DNA from: an uncultured Actinomycetes bacterium
Lineage (GTDB): Bacteria; Actinomycetota; Actinomycetes; Nanopelagicales; Nanopelagicaceae
Assembly: GCA_903838295.1 (NCBI GenBank)
Contig: CAILXX010000003.1
Span: 1 to 39,700 of the forward strand
DNA: 39,700 bases
Direction: 5' to 3'
The notes under the pieces are model-generated. The model worked only from the letters and a program-made list of their open reading frames with translations. It was not told the origin of the DNA and searched no databases. The stretch's first letter is position 1. Each line of letters begins with the position of its first letter. The position numbers and the translations under genes are program-made. Shown here piece after piece: positions 25,640 through 30,663 of this stretch.

Positions 25640-26551
25640 ATGGCTGAAAAGAAATTTCTCTCCTGGGTCGGCTTCAAGAGCGATACCCCCACAACTTCCT
25701 CATCTGCACATAAGGCAGATACATCGACTTCTGGAACTTCTGGAACTTCTGGAACCACTCCATCTCACGGAGCATTTGATCGGATCAGAGAACTAGAAAC
25801 TCAACTTGCAGATATGCGATCTCGTAGAGATATTTCTGGCCTAACAAAAGAAGAGTTTGAAATACTGGCAACAGAGACGGCAACCAGTCTCATTAAGACT
25901 GCCCAGGCCCGCGAACGCAGTGCAATTGCTGCTGCCGAACGTGCACTAGCCGAAGCAACACGAATTGCCCGTCAGGCAACGGAAGAGGCTGAATCAAAAG
26001 CAAAGGCAATCCTTTCTGGCGCAGAAAACCGTAGCCGTAAATATTTAGAGGCAGCAGAAAGTGAAGCGGCGGAAAAGATTTCTGAAGCAACATTGAACGC
26101 AGAAAAAATTATTGATAACAAGCGTCGGGAAGCCGCGACTCTTGCAAGCGCTGCGAAGCGTGAAGCAGAGCGTTTAATAGCTGAGGCTGCAGTAGATGTC
26201 ACTAGCTTTAAGAGTTGGTTGACTAGTGCAATTTCTGAATCTGAACGCCTGCATAGGATACAAAGCCAATCGCTTGCTTCGGCAGAAGAAGCAATTCGCC
26301 AAACTCGCCAACGATTGACCACTGCATTTGAAAAACTTGCTGCTTTAGGTTCTGATATTGATTCCAGCTTGGGAGAAGATAGCCTGCCTAAAGAAAATAC
26401 CTTTGCACGCTCAAAAAATATAGTTACGGATGCCACTGCGCCTAGCGCTATAAAGAAAGCACCGGTCAAAAAGAAGGCACCGGTCAAAAAGAAAGCAGTT
26501 GCTAAAAAAAGTACTCGGAAGAGCGTAGGAAAAAAACCAAAGCGTAAGTAA
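25640..26551 (+). CDS. Coiled-coil protein with histone-like basic tail
   Basis: I cannot assign a family with certainty. The 303-residue protein has a short N-terminal segment (AEKKFLSWVGF), a Ser/Thr/Gly linker with three SGT repeats, and then a long, almost uninterrupted helical region (about 50-235) rich in Ala, Glu and Arg with heptad spacing, a coiled coil reminiscent of DivIVA/Wag31-like or ATP-synthase-b-like proteins. It ends in a very basic tail from about 270 with KKAPVK repeats (KKAPVKKKAPVKKKAVAKK), like a histone H1 tail. There is no membrane helix. A GAGAGGA ribosome site precedes the ATG. Its stop overlaps the acyltransferase start by 1 bp (taATG), so the two are coupled. A polar-growth or nucleoid-organising role is possible but unproven. 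Confidence 0.8.
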   Translation: MAEKKFLSWVGFKSDTPTTSSSAHKADTSTSGTSGTSGTTPSHGAFDRIRELETQLADMRSRRDISGLTKEEFEILATETATSLIKTAQARERSAIAAAERALAEATRIARQATEEAESKAKAILSGAENRSRKYLEAAESEAAEKISEATLNAEKIIDNKRREAATLASAAKREAERLIAEAAVDVTSFKSWLTSAISESERLHRIQSQSLASAEEAIRQTRQRLTTAFEKLAALGSDIDSSLGEDSLPKENTFARSKNIVTDATAPSAIKKAPVKKKAPVKKKAVAKKSTRKSVGKKPKRK

Positions 26552-28302
26552 TGGCTCCAAAAACTTCGCGATATATTGCCCCGATTGATGGTCTTCGGGC
26601 TCTGGCTGTCACGGCCGTAATTCTTTATCACCTGGGAATCAACTGGATTCCTGGTGGCTTTTTAGGTGTAGATCTGTTCTTTGTCATCAGCGGCTACGTG
26701 ATTACACGCTTACTCCTAGATTCGATTCATACCAAGAGTGCACTAGACCTTCGGGAATTTTATTGGGCCAGATTTCGCCGTCTCTACCCCGCACTTCTAT
26801 TCATGCTTACAAGTACAACTTTTATCATTGCGCTCTGGAAACCAGATGCGATTCATCGCTTCCTTAAGGATCTGCCTTATGTCCTCACGGGATCTGAGAA
26901 TTGGCATCTAGTTGCTATCCATCAAGATTATTTTCAGACGATTGGTCGCCCACCCCTACTGCAACACACCTGGTCTCTGGCCGTCGAAGCACAGTTCTAT
27001 CTTCTTTGGCCTTTAGTTCTACTTGCTATTTTAAAATACTTTGGCAAAAAGTATGTCGCAAAAATTTCACTTGGAATCGCGTTCATATCGGGGCTTGCAT
27101 TATTTATCTTTTCACTGAGAGTTGATAACGCTTCGACTAATCGCATTAGCCACATTTATTTCGGGACTGATACGCACAGTTTGGGACTCTTTCTCGGGGC
27201 TGCCCTTGCGGTCAGTTGGGTCCCACGTAATCTCAATCGCAATATCTCCAGGAGAGCTCAAGATTTTGTCGATGGAATCGGCATAATCGGCCTCTTTGGA
27301 TTGCTCGGCACATTCTTCTTTATTAATGAATCTAATCCTGCTTTGTACCGTATAGCTTTTCCCCTCGCTGGAATCTTTGGATGTGCCATCATCACCTCGC
27401 TGGTTCACCCAGCGTCGCGATTTGCACCCTTAATGAGCACCAAACCAATGTTGTGGATCGGTGAAAGATCCTATGGAATTTATTTATGGCATTGGGTTGT
27501 ATTCCAAGTTACACGACCTTCGGTTGACCTGGCTGGTGCTGCTTGGGCGATCAACTCTGCACGAATTCTGATTGTTATAGCACTGGCTGATATATCCCTG
27601 CGTTGGGTAGAAATTCCTATACGCCGAGGCAAACTTTCTGACTGGCTGCGAGGAATGAAATATCGACGAACAGGTGTCAGAATCCGTCAAAAGATAGTGA
27701 TAGCCGGTTCTACTATTTTGGTTCTCCTCGGTGCATCAGGCGCCTCTATTGCGGCAATCATCGAAAATGATGATGCAAATACTGTAATCACCGCCGTCAC
27801 CGGTGAAGCTACAACTTCTTCCACCACGGTTTCATCATCTAAATCTGGCCTATGGGTAACCGGGGACTCGGTTATTTTGGGAATTAGGAGCAAATTGGCG
27901 AGCCACTATCCGATTGCGCTTGTGAACGCTCGTGTCGGACGCCAAATCGGTGAACTGATCAACGTTGTACAGGCCGACCGTGTTGGACTTGAAAAATCCA
28001 CAGTGATCTTTGATTTAGGAAATAACAATCATCTAACCGAGGCCGATGTCCGTACATTATTTAAACTCTTCCAGAATCAGCCTCGAATCATTGTGGTTGA
28101 TACCGCGGTGCCACGCCCTTGGCGTGAAGACAATAACCGAATCATCAAAAAAGTGATCACCGACTATCCACAAGCAACCTTGGTCGATTGGGAAAGTATC
28201 TCTCTCAATCATCCCGAATACTTCGCACCCGATGGGGTTCATTTAGATGAAGCCGGTGGTGACGTTTACGTTAACGCGATCTTAGAGGCGCTTAATAAGT
28301 AA
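26551..28302 (+). CDS. Membrane acyltransferase (family 3) with SGNH-like C-terminal domain
   Basis: Proteins of this type (OafA/OatA) move acetyl or other acyl groups across the membrane onto cell-surface glycans. The 583 residues start with the acyltransferase-3 signature YIAPIDGLRALAVTAVILYH, continue GGFLGVDLFFVISGYVIT and REFYWARFRRLYPA, and contain about ten membrane helices to about 370. One more helix follows near 390-410, then an extracytoplasmic SGNH-like domain with VTGDSVILG (serine near 439), DLGNNNH and the catalytic pair in DGVHLDEAG near 560. The target could be peptidoglycan, lipid-linked sugars or a surface polysaccharide. It is translationally coupled to the coiled-coil gene. 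Confidence 0.9.
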   Translation: MAPKTSRYIAPIDGLRALAVTAVILYHLGINWIPGGFLGVDLFFVISGYVITRLLLDSIHTKSALDLREFYWARFRRLYPALLFMLTSTTFIIALWKPDAIHRFLKDLPYVLTGSENWHLVAIHQDYFQTIGRPPLLQHTWSLAVEAQFYLLWPLVLLAILKYFGKKYVAKISLGIAFISGLALFIFSLRVDNASTNRISHIYFGTDTHSLGLFLGAALAVSWVPRNLNRNISRRAQDFVDGIGIIGLFGLLGTFFFINESNPALYRIAFPLAGIFGCAIITSLVHPASRFAPLMSTKPMLWIGERSYGIYLWHWVVFQVTRPSVDLAGAAWAINSARILIVIALADISLRWVEIPIRRGKLSDWLRGMKYRRTGVRIRQKIVIAGSTILVLLGASGASIAAIIENDDANTVITAVTGEATTSSTTVSSSKSGLWVTGDSVILGIRSKLASHYPIALVNARVGRQIGELINVVQADRVGLEKSTVIFDLGNNNHLTEADVRTLFKLFQNQPRIIVVDTAVPRPWREDNNRIIKKVITDYPQATLVDWESISLNHPEYFAPDGVHLDEAGGDVYVNAILEALNK

Positions 28303-28313
28303 TCGAGAGCATT

Positions 28314-28345
28314 AAAAAACCCCACCTTTTAAAGCGGGGTTTTTT
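28314..28345. terminator. Bidirectional intrinsic terminator
   Basis: The 10-bp stem aaaaaacccc (28314-28323) and its complement (28336-28345) give a GC core with an A-run on one side and a T-run on the other. It can therefore end transcription from both the acyltransferase gene and the convergent histone-tailed gene. Confidence 0.93.
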
Positions 28346-28364
28346 ATTTAACTTTTGATAGTTC

Positions 28365-29240
28365 TTATGAATACTGTCCAGGAAGTCCGAAGACCTTGCC
28401 AGCAAAAGTGTTGCCATCTGAATAAACAGCAGAAATCTTGAAGGATACCCAACCATCTGTGCCGTTCTTTGTGACATCCAGTGAAAGTTGAGTTGCTGGA
28501 ACAGTTGCGATCAACTTAAACTCACCGCCGTTTGAAGCCGCTGCAACGTTGTAGCTTGTTAAACCGGTTGCACCTTGAGGTGCGGCCCAGAATATGGTCG
28601 CTCCCTTTGCCGTGTAATGAGCAACAATTCCAACAGGAGCTGCATCGGAAGCATTTGGAGTAGTCGATGCTGTGTCGGATGCTGATGCTGATGCTGATGA
28701 CATTGATGCTGTCGTTGGTGAATCAGTAGCCGCTGGTGAAGTTGACGCCGTCGATGAGGTAGAACTCGAATTGTGGTTACGTGATACGACCAATACCGCC
28801 AGGAGAATTACTCCGACGACCACAGTAAATACGACTCTAGATGATGACTTTTGGGCATTACTAGAAGTAGTGCTTGAAGCAGGCGCAGCGATTGACTTCG
28901 GAGCCACAGCACTAGAAATTGTTGTTGCCTTTGATGAACTGCTCGAAGGAACTGGTGGGATAACAATGCGGGTTGCGGCGTTTGAAGGTGCTTTCTTAGC
29001 AATAGCATTCTTTGTTACAGCCTTCTTAGCAACCTTCTTGGCTGGTGCTCTCTTCGCAACTTTTTTCGCAACCGCCTTCTTAGCCACAGCCTTCTTGGCT
29101 GGTGCTCTCTTTGCAGAAGACTTCTTAGCAACGGCTTTCTTTGCCGCAGCCTTCTTGGCAGGTGCTCTCTTCGCAGAAGACTTCTTAACAACAGCCTTCT
29201 TTGCGACCTTCTTTTTCGTTGCTGTCTTTTTGACTGCCAC
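28365..29240 (-). CDS. Membrane protein with histone-H1-like N-terminal tail and extracytoplasmic Fn3-like domain
   Basis: I do not know a named family for this protein. It has 291 residues and starts at GTG 29240 after an AAGGAG ribosome site. Residues 1 to about 85 are almost all Lys, Ala, Val, Pro, Arg and Ser in repeats such as [15 protein letters not shown], as in bacterial H1-like proteins that bind DNA. A Ser/Thr/Ala linker follows, then a single membrane helix ([17 protein letters not shown], about 137-153), another Ser/Thr-rich linker (about 155-200) and a C-terminal fibronectin-III-like domain ([30 protein letters not shown]). With Lys-rich residues before the helix, the tail should be cytoplasmic and the Fn3-like domain outside. 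This suggests a tether between DNA and the envelope. Two long DNA repeats (about 29091-29190) encode the tail. Confidence 0.82.
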
Positions 29241-29306
29241 GGTTTCTCCTTGAGTTAATAGTGATCAAATCAGAGGTATTCCAATGGCAAAATCGTACCT
29301 TAATCA

Positions 29307-29921
29307 TTACAACAAGCGCCTTAGATCGGGCAACATGGCTTGGAGCGCCTTGCCCCGATGGCTTATTTGATCCTTGTGTTCAGCGGCGAGTTCTGCCGTA
29401 GTTTCACTGTATCCATGCGGCTGGAAAATTGGGTCATACCCAAAGCCATTAGTTCCACGCGGGACCACAACTATCTCCCCCACAATCTCACGCTGGTGAA
29501 CCACCTCTAATCCGGCATTGGCATGTGTGTGTGGGAAGACTAAGGCGACCGCGCACTGGAACTGGGCTCCCATAGATGGATTGTCCAGCTCTGATAATTC
29601 TCGTAATACTTTTTCAAGATTTGCCTTGTCATCCCCATGCGTTCCCGCCCAGCGAGCAGAAAATATTCCCGGAGCACCGTTTAAAGCATCAACACACAAT
29701 CCACTGTCATCTGCCAATGAAGGTAAGTGCGTGAACGAACTTATTTCTCGAGCCTTTAGCAAAGCATTCTCTTCAAATGTAGAACCGGTTTCATCTACTT
29801 CCGGCATATCTGGAAAATCGCGCAGACCAAGCACCTGTATATCTAACTGGGCATTGCGGAGCATTCGGTCGAACTCTTCGATTTTTCCTACATTGCGAGT
29901 AGCGAGTACAACTTTCTTCAC
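29307..29921 (-). CDS. rdgB: Non-canonical purine NTP pyrophosphatase (RdgB/HAM1)
   Basis: This enzyme hydrolyses dITP, XTP and similar damaged nucleotides to monophosphates and keeps them out of nucleic acids. Recognisable segments are KKVVLATRNVGKIEEF, the active-site SLADDSGLCVDALNGAPGIFSARWAG, and TNGFGYDPIFQPHGY. I prefer the GTG at 29921 because it gives the family N-terminus and avoids overlap; another GTG at 29954 would add 11 residues and overlap rph by 20 bp. It is the last gene of the clpS-DUF2017-murI-rph-rdgB order that is common in actinobacteria. Confidence 0.95.
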   Translation of the reverse strand: MKKVVLATRNVGKIEEFDRMLRNAQLDIQVLGLRDFPDMPEVDETGSTFEENALLKAREISSFTHLPSLADDSGLCVDALNGAPGIFSARWAGTHGDDKANLEKVLRELSELDNPSMGAQFQCAVALVFPHTHANAGLEVVHQREIVGEIVVVPRGTNGFGYDPIFQPHGYSETTAELAAEHKDQISHRGKALQAMLPDLRRLL

Positions 29922-29934
29922 TGGAATAATTTCT

Positions 29935-30663
29935 TCACTGGGATAAAGCGACACTCTGCAGACGTGTTATTTCTGCGCATCCAGCAACACCAAGATCGAG
30001 AAGTTGATTCAATAGCGCACGATCAAATGGGACGCCTTCGGCAGTTCCTTGGACTTCTACAAAGTTGCCATCACCTGTGCACACTATGTTCATGTCAGTA
30101 TCTGCATCAACATCTTCCACATAACAAAGGTCCAACATCGGAACACCCTTGATAATTCCTACACTTACCGCAGCAACTGACTGACGCAATGGTTGACGGT
30201 CAGCAATGATGTGGCCCTGGGATTTAGCCCACGTAATCGCATCTGCTAGCGCGACATAAGCACCTGTGATTGCCGCTGTTCGGGTACCACCATCTGCTTG
30301 GAGTACATCGCAGTCGATAACAATTGTGTTTTCACCCAATGCATGAGTATCAACCACCGCACGTAATGACCGGCCAACAAGTCGAGAAATCTCTTGAGTT
30401 CGCCCGCCTAATTTACCTTTGACGCTTTCGCGATCAGACCTTGTGTGAGTTGCGCGTGGCAACATTGCATATTCACTTGTTACCCAACCCGTGCCTTTGC
30501 CGGTCAACCAGCGCGGAACACCGGGGGTAAATGATGCAACGCAGAGCACGCGAGTATTTCCGAATTCAACAAGAACCGAACCTTCGGCATTTTTCAACCA
30601 ATTGCGGGTGAATGTAATTGGGCGTAATTGATCCGCCGAACGTCCATCGATGCGCTGACTCAT
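29935..30663 (-). CDS. rph: Ribonuclease PH
   Basis: RNase PH is a phosphate-dependent 3' exonuclease that trims tRNA precursors. The 242 residues contain the family start [17 protein letters not shown], the phosphate-binding [19 protein letters not shown] and [20 protein letters not shown]. The length is normal. The start overlaps the stop of murI by 1 bp, so the two are coupled. It acts in the cytoplasm as a hexamer in known relatives. Confidence 0.97.

Follow-up and report, generated by a model that had tools for sequence, protein, structure and literature searches.

A conserved Nanopelagicaceae protein with a histone-H1-like tail, a membrane helix and a fibronectin type III domain, and its possible role in linking nucleoid and envelope

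The DNA analysed here, referred to as the window, is a stretch of 39,700 nucleotides from an uncultured member of the Nanopelagicaceae (contig CAILXX010000003.1). Its gene of interest is an open reading frame with a GTG start codon, the limits of which (28365-29240) match exactly those given in an earlier note made from the sequence alone (the original prediction), which had left the minus strand unstated. The gene, its features and its neighbours are listed in Table 1. A sigma-70-like promoter was sought upstream of the gene and was not found, and the strong hairpin separating it from the convergent acyltransferase gene is predicted to fold on both strands, with energies of -19.4 kcal/mol (z -4.5) for the minus and -14.1 kcal/mol (z -3.4) for the plus strand. 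A search of PHROGs with the protein gave no match. When relatives were compared, an excess of third-position differences was seen in the tail, helix and fibronectin type III (Fn3) parts alike, with changes at codon positions 1/2/3 numbering 747/704/1983 in the Fn3 part and 639/750/1576 in the tail part, and aligned Lys residues often used different codons (1965 of 5077 pairs). Because homologues of the Fn3 part occur in congeneric genomes, because the complete relatives examined share the layout, and because of this codon-position bias, a chance low-complexity frame can be ruled out, and the gene is real, selected and conserved. A plus-strand frame at 28672-29253 (193 aa) mirrors the Lys-rich tail; it probably exists only because of the repeats and was not counted as a gene.

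Table 1. Features of the gene for the H1-like/Fn3 protein and its surroundings (positions in the window)
Feature	Position	Strand	Basis
Complete gene for the 291-aa protein (H1-like tail, membrane helix and Fn3)	28365..29240	minus	ORF and homologues
Lys/Ala/Pro/Arg tail, residues 1-86, predicted cytoplasmic and putatively DNA-binding	28983..29240	minus	disordered in model
IVIPPVP, residues 92-98, conserved in an otherwise variable inner linker; candidate docking site	28947..28967	minus	relatives
Single transmembrane helix, residues 134-154	28779..28841	minus	AlphaFold and hydrophobicity
Ser/Thr/Ala outer linker, residues 155-200	28641..28778	minus	model and relatives
Fibronectin type III domain, residues 201-291, predicted extracellular	28368..28640	minus	profile and fold
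Ribosome-binding site AAGGAG	29246..29251	minus	sequence
Bidirectional terminator hairpin between convergent genes	28313..28346	.	folding energy
rdgB (Ham1 family), which follows murI and rph; conserved upstream	29307..29954	minus	family loci
Membrane acyltransferase (Acyl_transf_3), conserved convergent neighbour	26551..28302	plus	family loci
Coiled-coil protein that ends in a Lys-rich tail of its own, conserved in the block; possible partner	25640..26551	plus	family loci

The AlphaFold model of the whole window protein contains a helix (residues 134-154) and an ordered beta domain that runs from about residue 201 to the C-terminus, with an outer linker of approximately 46 residues and then the 91-residue Fn3 domain lying C-terminal to the helix; confidence is low in the tail and in both linkers, and nothing on the inner side is modelled as ordered. 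The tail of about 85 Lys/Ala/Pro/Arg residues that had been predicted was found at about residues 1-86, with Lys making up 37% of its first 83 residues, and the single membrane helix is likewise borne out by one hydrophobic segment. Layout and charge were surveyed in 41 complete members of the protein family, all of which have one hydrophobic membrane peak each, and net charges of +21 to +49 inside and -12 to +3 outside (the inner side of the window protein has +38). When the positive-inside rule is applied to these charges, the tail is predicted to be cytoplasmic and the Fn3 domain external (N-in/C-out) in 41/41 members, which agrees with the original prediction and is the outcome of the topology check that it had suggested. 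A tail outside the cell was rejected on the basis of charge in all 41 members examined. While the length of the tail (54-114 residues among the complete members) and its residue order are variable, its composition stays constant despite fast reshuffling of the sequence (37-47% Lys), which is what a disordered polycation would show. In the inner linker the pattern [FIVL][IVL][IVL]P-x(1,2)-P is present in 33 of 41 relatives, compared with a mean of 0.37 in shuffled linkers, a count from related sequences and as such not a formal probability; this conserved IVIPPVP-type motif suggests a docking site.

The C-terminal approximately 91 residues are a true Fn3 domain as judged by profile and by predicted fold, which supports the fibronectin-like domain of the original prediction. 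Folded alone, the domain was predicted with a pLDDT of 94.7, and among solved Fn3 domains the model aligned best with 2w1n, from a glycoside hydrolase of Clostridium perfringens (Z 12.9, 87 residues at 1.9 A). The Fn3 profile matched Titin Fn3 (E 2.8e-7) and FN3con (E 1.9e-6), and 31 of 44 members gave a Pfam fn3 match with E<1, the lowest value being 7.4e-5; the window sequence alone gave no match to Pfam fn3. The external domain may contact the wall; Fn3 domains, however, have many roles.

With regard to the tail, the description as histone-H1-like holds for its composition, as Lys/Ala/Pro/Arg repeats are common to the window protein and the soluble histone-H1-like proteins (Hc2/PF07382, NF038053), but not for its scores, which are below the Pfam gathering score for Hc2 (28.9 vs 40 bits) and the curated cut-off for NF038053 (38.6 vs 80 bits). 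The E-value of the match to the H1-like models was 1.3e-9. Some relatives are above the PF07382 gathering score in a six-frame search (e.g. G046, 54.2 bits), and in a check of 14 genomes with NF038053 none was over the cut-off. A Pfam scan of the window protein gave no match to the HU domain (PF00216), and the HU of the source genome (L187) carries a tail of the same type. This HU tail and the published tails of HbhA and Rv3852 make DNA the likely target of the tail of the window protein: deletion of the HbhA tail abolishes DNA binding and the isolated tail binds (PMC10665949), and DNA is bound by the PAKK/KKAP repeats of Rv3852 (PMC4433263).

The Fn3 region matched 28 of the 32 congeneric genomes and 176 of the 201 genomes of the family, which are small (about 1-2 Mb) and recorded as actinobacterial metagenome bins, many of which seem to come from lakes. 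Four of the 176 (genus g6) are weak matches in different Fn3 proteins, most of them far larger, and were left out, which gives 172/201 carriers, 92 of them among the 99 near-complete genomes; in these 92 the H1-like/Fn3 layout is single-copy with the same neighbours. Six of the seven near-complete genomes lacking the protein belong to the basal genera g6 and g9 (0/6 carry it), and in the seventh (G051) the start of the tail runs into the contig end. It is also missing from a third basal genus, g12, the genomes of which are under the near-complete threshold. No family-like frame was found in approximately 266 genomes from the rest of the class, and in the non-family genomes of the class that were sampled no such gene adjoins rdgB; searching the class with the profile gave five outside genomes with weak Fn3 matches, in long multidomain frames (516-2108 aa). 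The H1-like/Fn3 protein thus appears to be a lineage-wide family, near-universal above the three basal genera; the original prediction had proposed the search for the same domain order, and had overlooked both this family and its conserved neighbourhood. One record titled Bifidobacterium breve (L058, CAMAYZ010000008.1) matches the family in gene and gene order, and is probably a misnamed metagenome bin.

Tails rich in Lys were also seen on other proteins. In the source genome (L195, G000:C2:54500-58500) and in relatives (L196, L197, L201 and L209), a zinc-finger protein of the DksA/TraR-like type bears a long Lys/Ala/Pro tail at its N-terminus, and ribosomal protein L17 has a C-terminal Lys/Ala/Pro tail in g6, g9 and g12 (L199, L204, L207, L208 and L217). 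Genus g6, without the membrane version, has a soluble, almost pure H1-like protein of about 140 aa (L202, L205 and L212). In the basal genera the Lys tails are on helix-less proteins (L17, topoisomerase I, DksA-like and soluble H1-like), and outside the family the top-ranking loci from the class-wide HC2 search have them on HU, topoisomerase I and others, again with no convincing membrane helix.

The neighbourhood was surveyed in 43 loci from named records. The rdgB gene is located just upstream on the same strand in 42 of these, the remaining locus beginning inside the gene, the membrane acyltransferase gene converges on the H1-like/Fn3 gene in 43/43, and the coiled-coil gene is next in 37/43, with the stretch stopping before reaching it in the other six. 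By eye, the acyltransferase has an SGNH-like C-terminal part, and may modify wall or surface polymers. Nearly all relatives of the coiled-coil protein have a terminal Lys-rich tail, and it is present in 178/201 genomes of the family (93/99 near-complete) and absent from g6, g9 and g12 save for one fragment in G064 (contig C54, L229; genus g9), which resembles genus g17 and is probably contamination. Its presence and absence are the same as for the H1-like/Fn3 protein. In a tree of rdgB and rph, g6 and the g9/g12 clade are at the base of the family (bootstrap 63-86 for key branches), and one gain therefore explains both genes, so that their shared absence is not independent evidence of partnership; conservation of gene order across this deep split favours a shared role without proving it. 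DivIVA is widespread in actinobacteria. No DivIVA (PF05103) over the cut-off was found in six genomes of the family, including the source genome, in a six-frame search in which the control Corynebacterium glutamicum was positive. The coiled-coil protein weakly matches DivIVA/Wag31, and other coiled coils too; it was rejected as a DivIVA, as these weak coiled-coil matches are below the PF05103 gathering score and do not amount to an N-terminal DivIVA domain.

By analogy with known proteins, we hold with moderate confidence that the window protein is a non-specific tether between nucleoid and envelope, with both DNA binding and wall contact presumed. The disordered, positive N-terminal tail would bind DNA non-specifically in the cytoplasm, as AKKA/PAKK tails do, the single helix would keep it at the membrane, and the Ser/Thr/Ala linker would bear the Fn3 domain outside, where its ligand may be a polymer of the wall or a surface protein. 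A partner in the cytoplasm probably docks at the conserved IVIPPVP motif; a candidate for it is the coiled-coil protein with a Lys tail that is encoded two genes away. This reading is supported by the layout held in 41/41 members, the tail on HU, the precedent of Rv3852 and single-copy near-universality, and is weakened by the dispute over Rv3852, by the ability of Lys tails to bind other polyanions and by H1-like scores under the cut-offs. A more specific version, which we put forward tentatively and consider rather unlikely, is that in the main branch of the family, in which no canonical DivIVA was detected, the coiled-coil protein and the window protein form a dedicated nucleoid-envelope scaffold for positioning and packing the chromosome in very small cells. 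Both would grip DNA, one of them reaching across the membrane to the wall, and they would take the place of systems built on DivIVA (RacA-DivIVA or Rv3852-Wag31, for example). The physical ties of the bacterial chromosome to the envelope are poorly known outside a few models, and the layout recalls a tethering for which a single mycobacterial protein, of loose similarity, is the one example to date; if the proposed role is true, an abundant, hard-to-study group would have a protein that ties nucleoid directly to envelope, and the disputed Rv3852 design would not be a one-off.

The tail may instead hold another cytoplasmic polyanion (ribosomes or RNA, polyphosphate or acidic lipid), and the protein would then tether translation or organise the membrane. 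Lys-rich tails can bind other polyanions too, polycations being promiscuous, and similar Lys/Ala/Pro tails are on the L17 and DksA-like proteins of the family; set against this are the close similarity to the tail on HU of the same genome and the DNA binding by AKKA tails elsewhere (PMC10665949, PMC4433263), and we consider such a target rather unlikely. Another reading dispenses with DNA altogether: the tail would serve electrostatically or as a topogenic signal, docking the neighbouring coiled-coil protein or the membrane surface, and the real job would lie in the envelope, with the Fn3 domain and the acyltransferase. The conserved inner motif fits such a device, as does the conserved grouping of the gene with those for a membrane acyltransferase and a coiled-coil protein, yet for a topogenic signal a few charges would do, rather than 54-114 residues at approximately 42% Lys, and we consider it improbable.

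Surface sensing, the second of the two roles originally proposed, is weaker than tethering, which is favoured, because the protein has neither a sequence-specific DNA-binding domain nor a signalling domain. As a one-piece, CadC/ToxR-like sensor, binding of a ligand by the Fn3 domain would alter the hold of the tail on DNA and hence gene expression. The protein does have an outside domain, one helix and an inside DNA-binding candidate, and CadC shows that membrane-integrated binders exist (PMC6320335), but with no winged helix and an inner side disordered in the model we give this possibility a low probability as well. Least probable is a Lys-rich segment exposed outside the cell for adhesion, a position that the Lys-rich end of HbhA can take in mycobacteria: while HbhA is an adhesion molecule with a Lys/Pro/Ala tail (PMC10665949), the window protein has no signal peptide, its tail precedes the helix, and the positive-inside rule favours the tail inside in all 41 members.

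Compared with known systems, the preferred tethering role has its nearest counterpart in Rv3852 of Mycobacterium tuberculosis, an already known membrane-anchored nucleoid protein with KAP repeats that the original prediction had overlooked. Confined to slow-growing mycobacteria, of which it is the 'H-NS', Rv3852 combines KAAK/PAAK repeats with a membrane helix at its C-terminus. It reportedly binds DNA while anchored in the membrane and makes the nucleoid more diffuse, reportedly condenses the nucleoid once its helix is taken away, and reportedly binds the DivIVA homologue Wag31 (PMC8233713). This precedent is disputed, as a 2017 study, as cited in PMC6155035, found no role of Rv3852 in nucleoid compaction. 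Both proteins have Lys/Ala/Pro repeats at the N-terminus and, after these, one membrane helix (PMC8233713, PMC4433263), whereas in Rv3852 the helix is C-terminal with no outer domain, and the window protein adds the external Fn3 domain, a longer tail and the conserved inner motif, and adjoins rdgB. The NCBIfam model of Rv3852 (NF050153) gave 10.6 bits (E 0.62) against a cut-off of 100, with weak matches to 10 of 43 relatives (best E 8.3e-8); because of this failed score and the added outer Fn3 domain, the window protein is not a member of the Rv3852 family, and by analogy would act at most like it. We found no description of an H1-like/Fn3 protein in the literature. Relative to the soluble histone-H1-like proteins, whose curated cut-offs it does not reach, the window protein adds a membrane helix and Fn3, and it shares the type of Lys-rich tail with HU of the HupB/HupS type while being without the HU domain. 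Receptors of the CadC/ToxR type have a folded, specific DNA-binding domain, whereas the inside of the window protein is a disordered tail; the order of inside DNA binder, one helix and outside domain is the same (CadC, PMC6320335). HbhA of M. tuberculosis has an AKKA-rich tail, DNA-binding in HbhA, in common with the window protein, although its layout of a coiled coil with a C-terminal tail is closer to that of the neighbour at 25640-26551. The window protein is thus not the first membrane-anchored H1-like protein, with Rv3852 as a known precedent.
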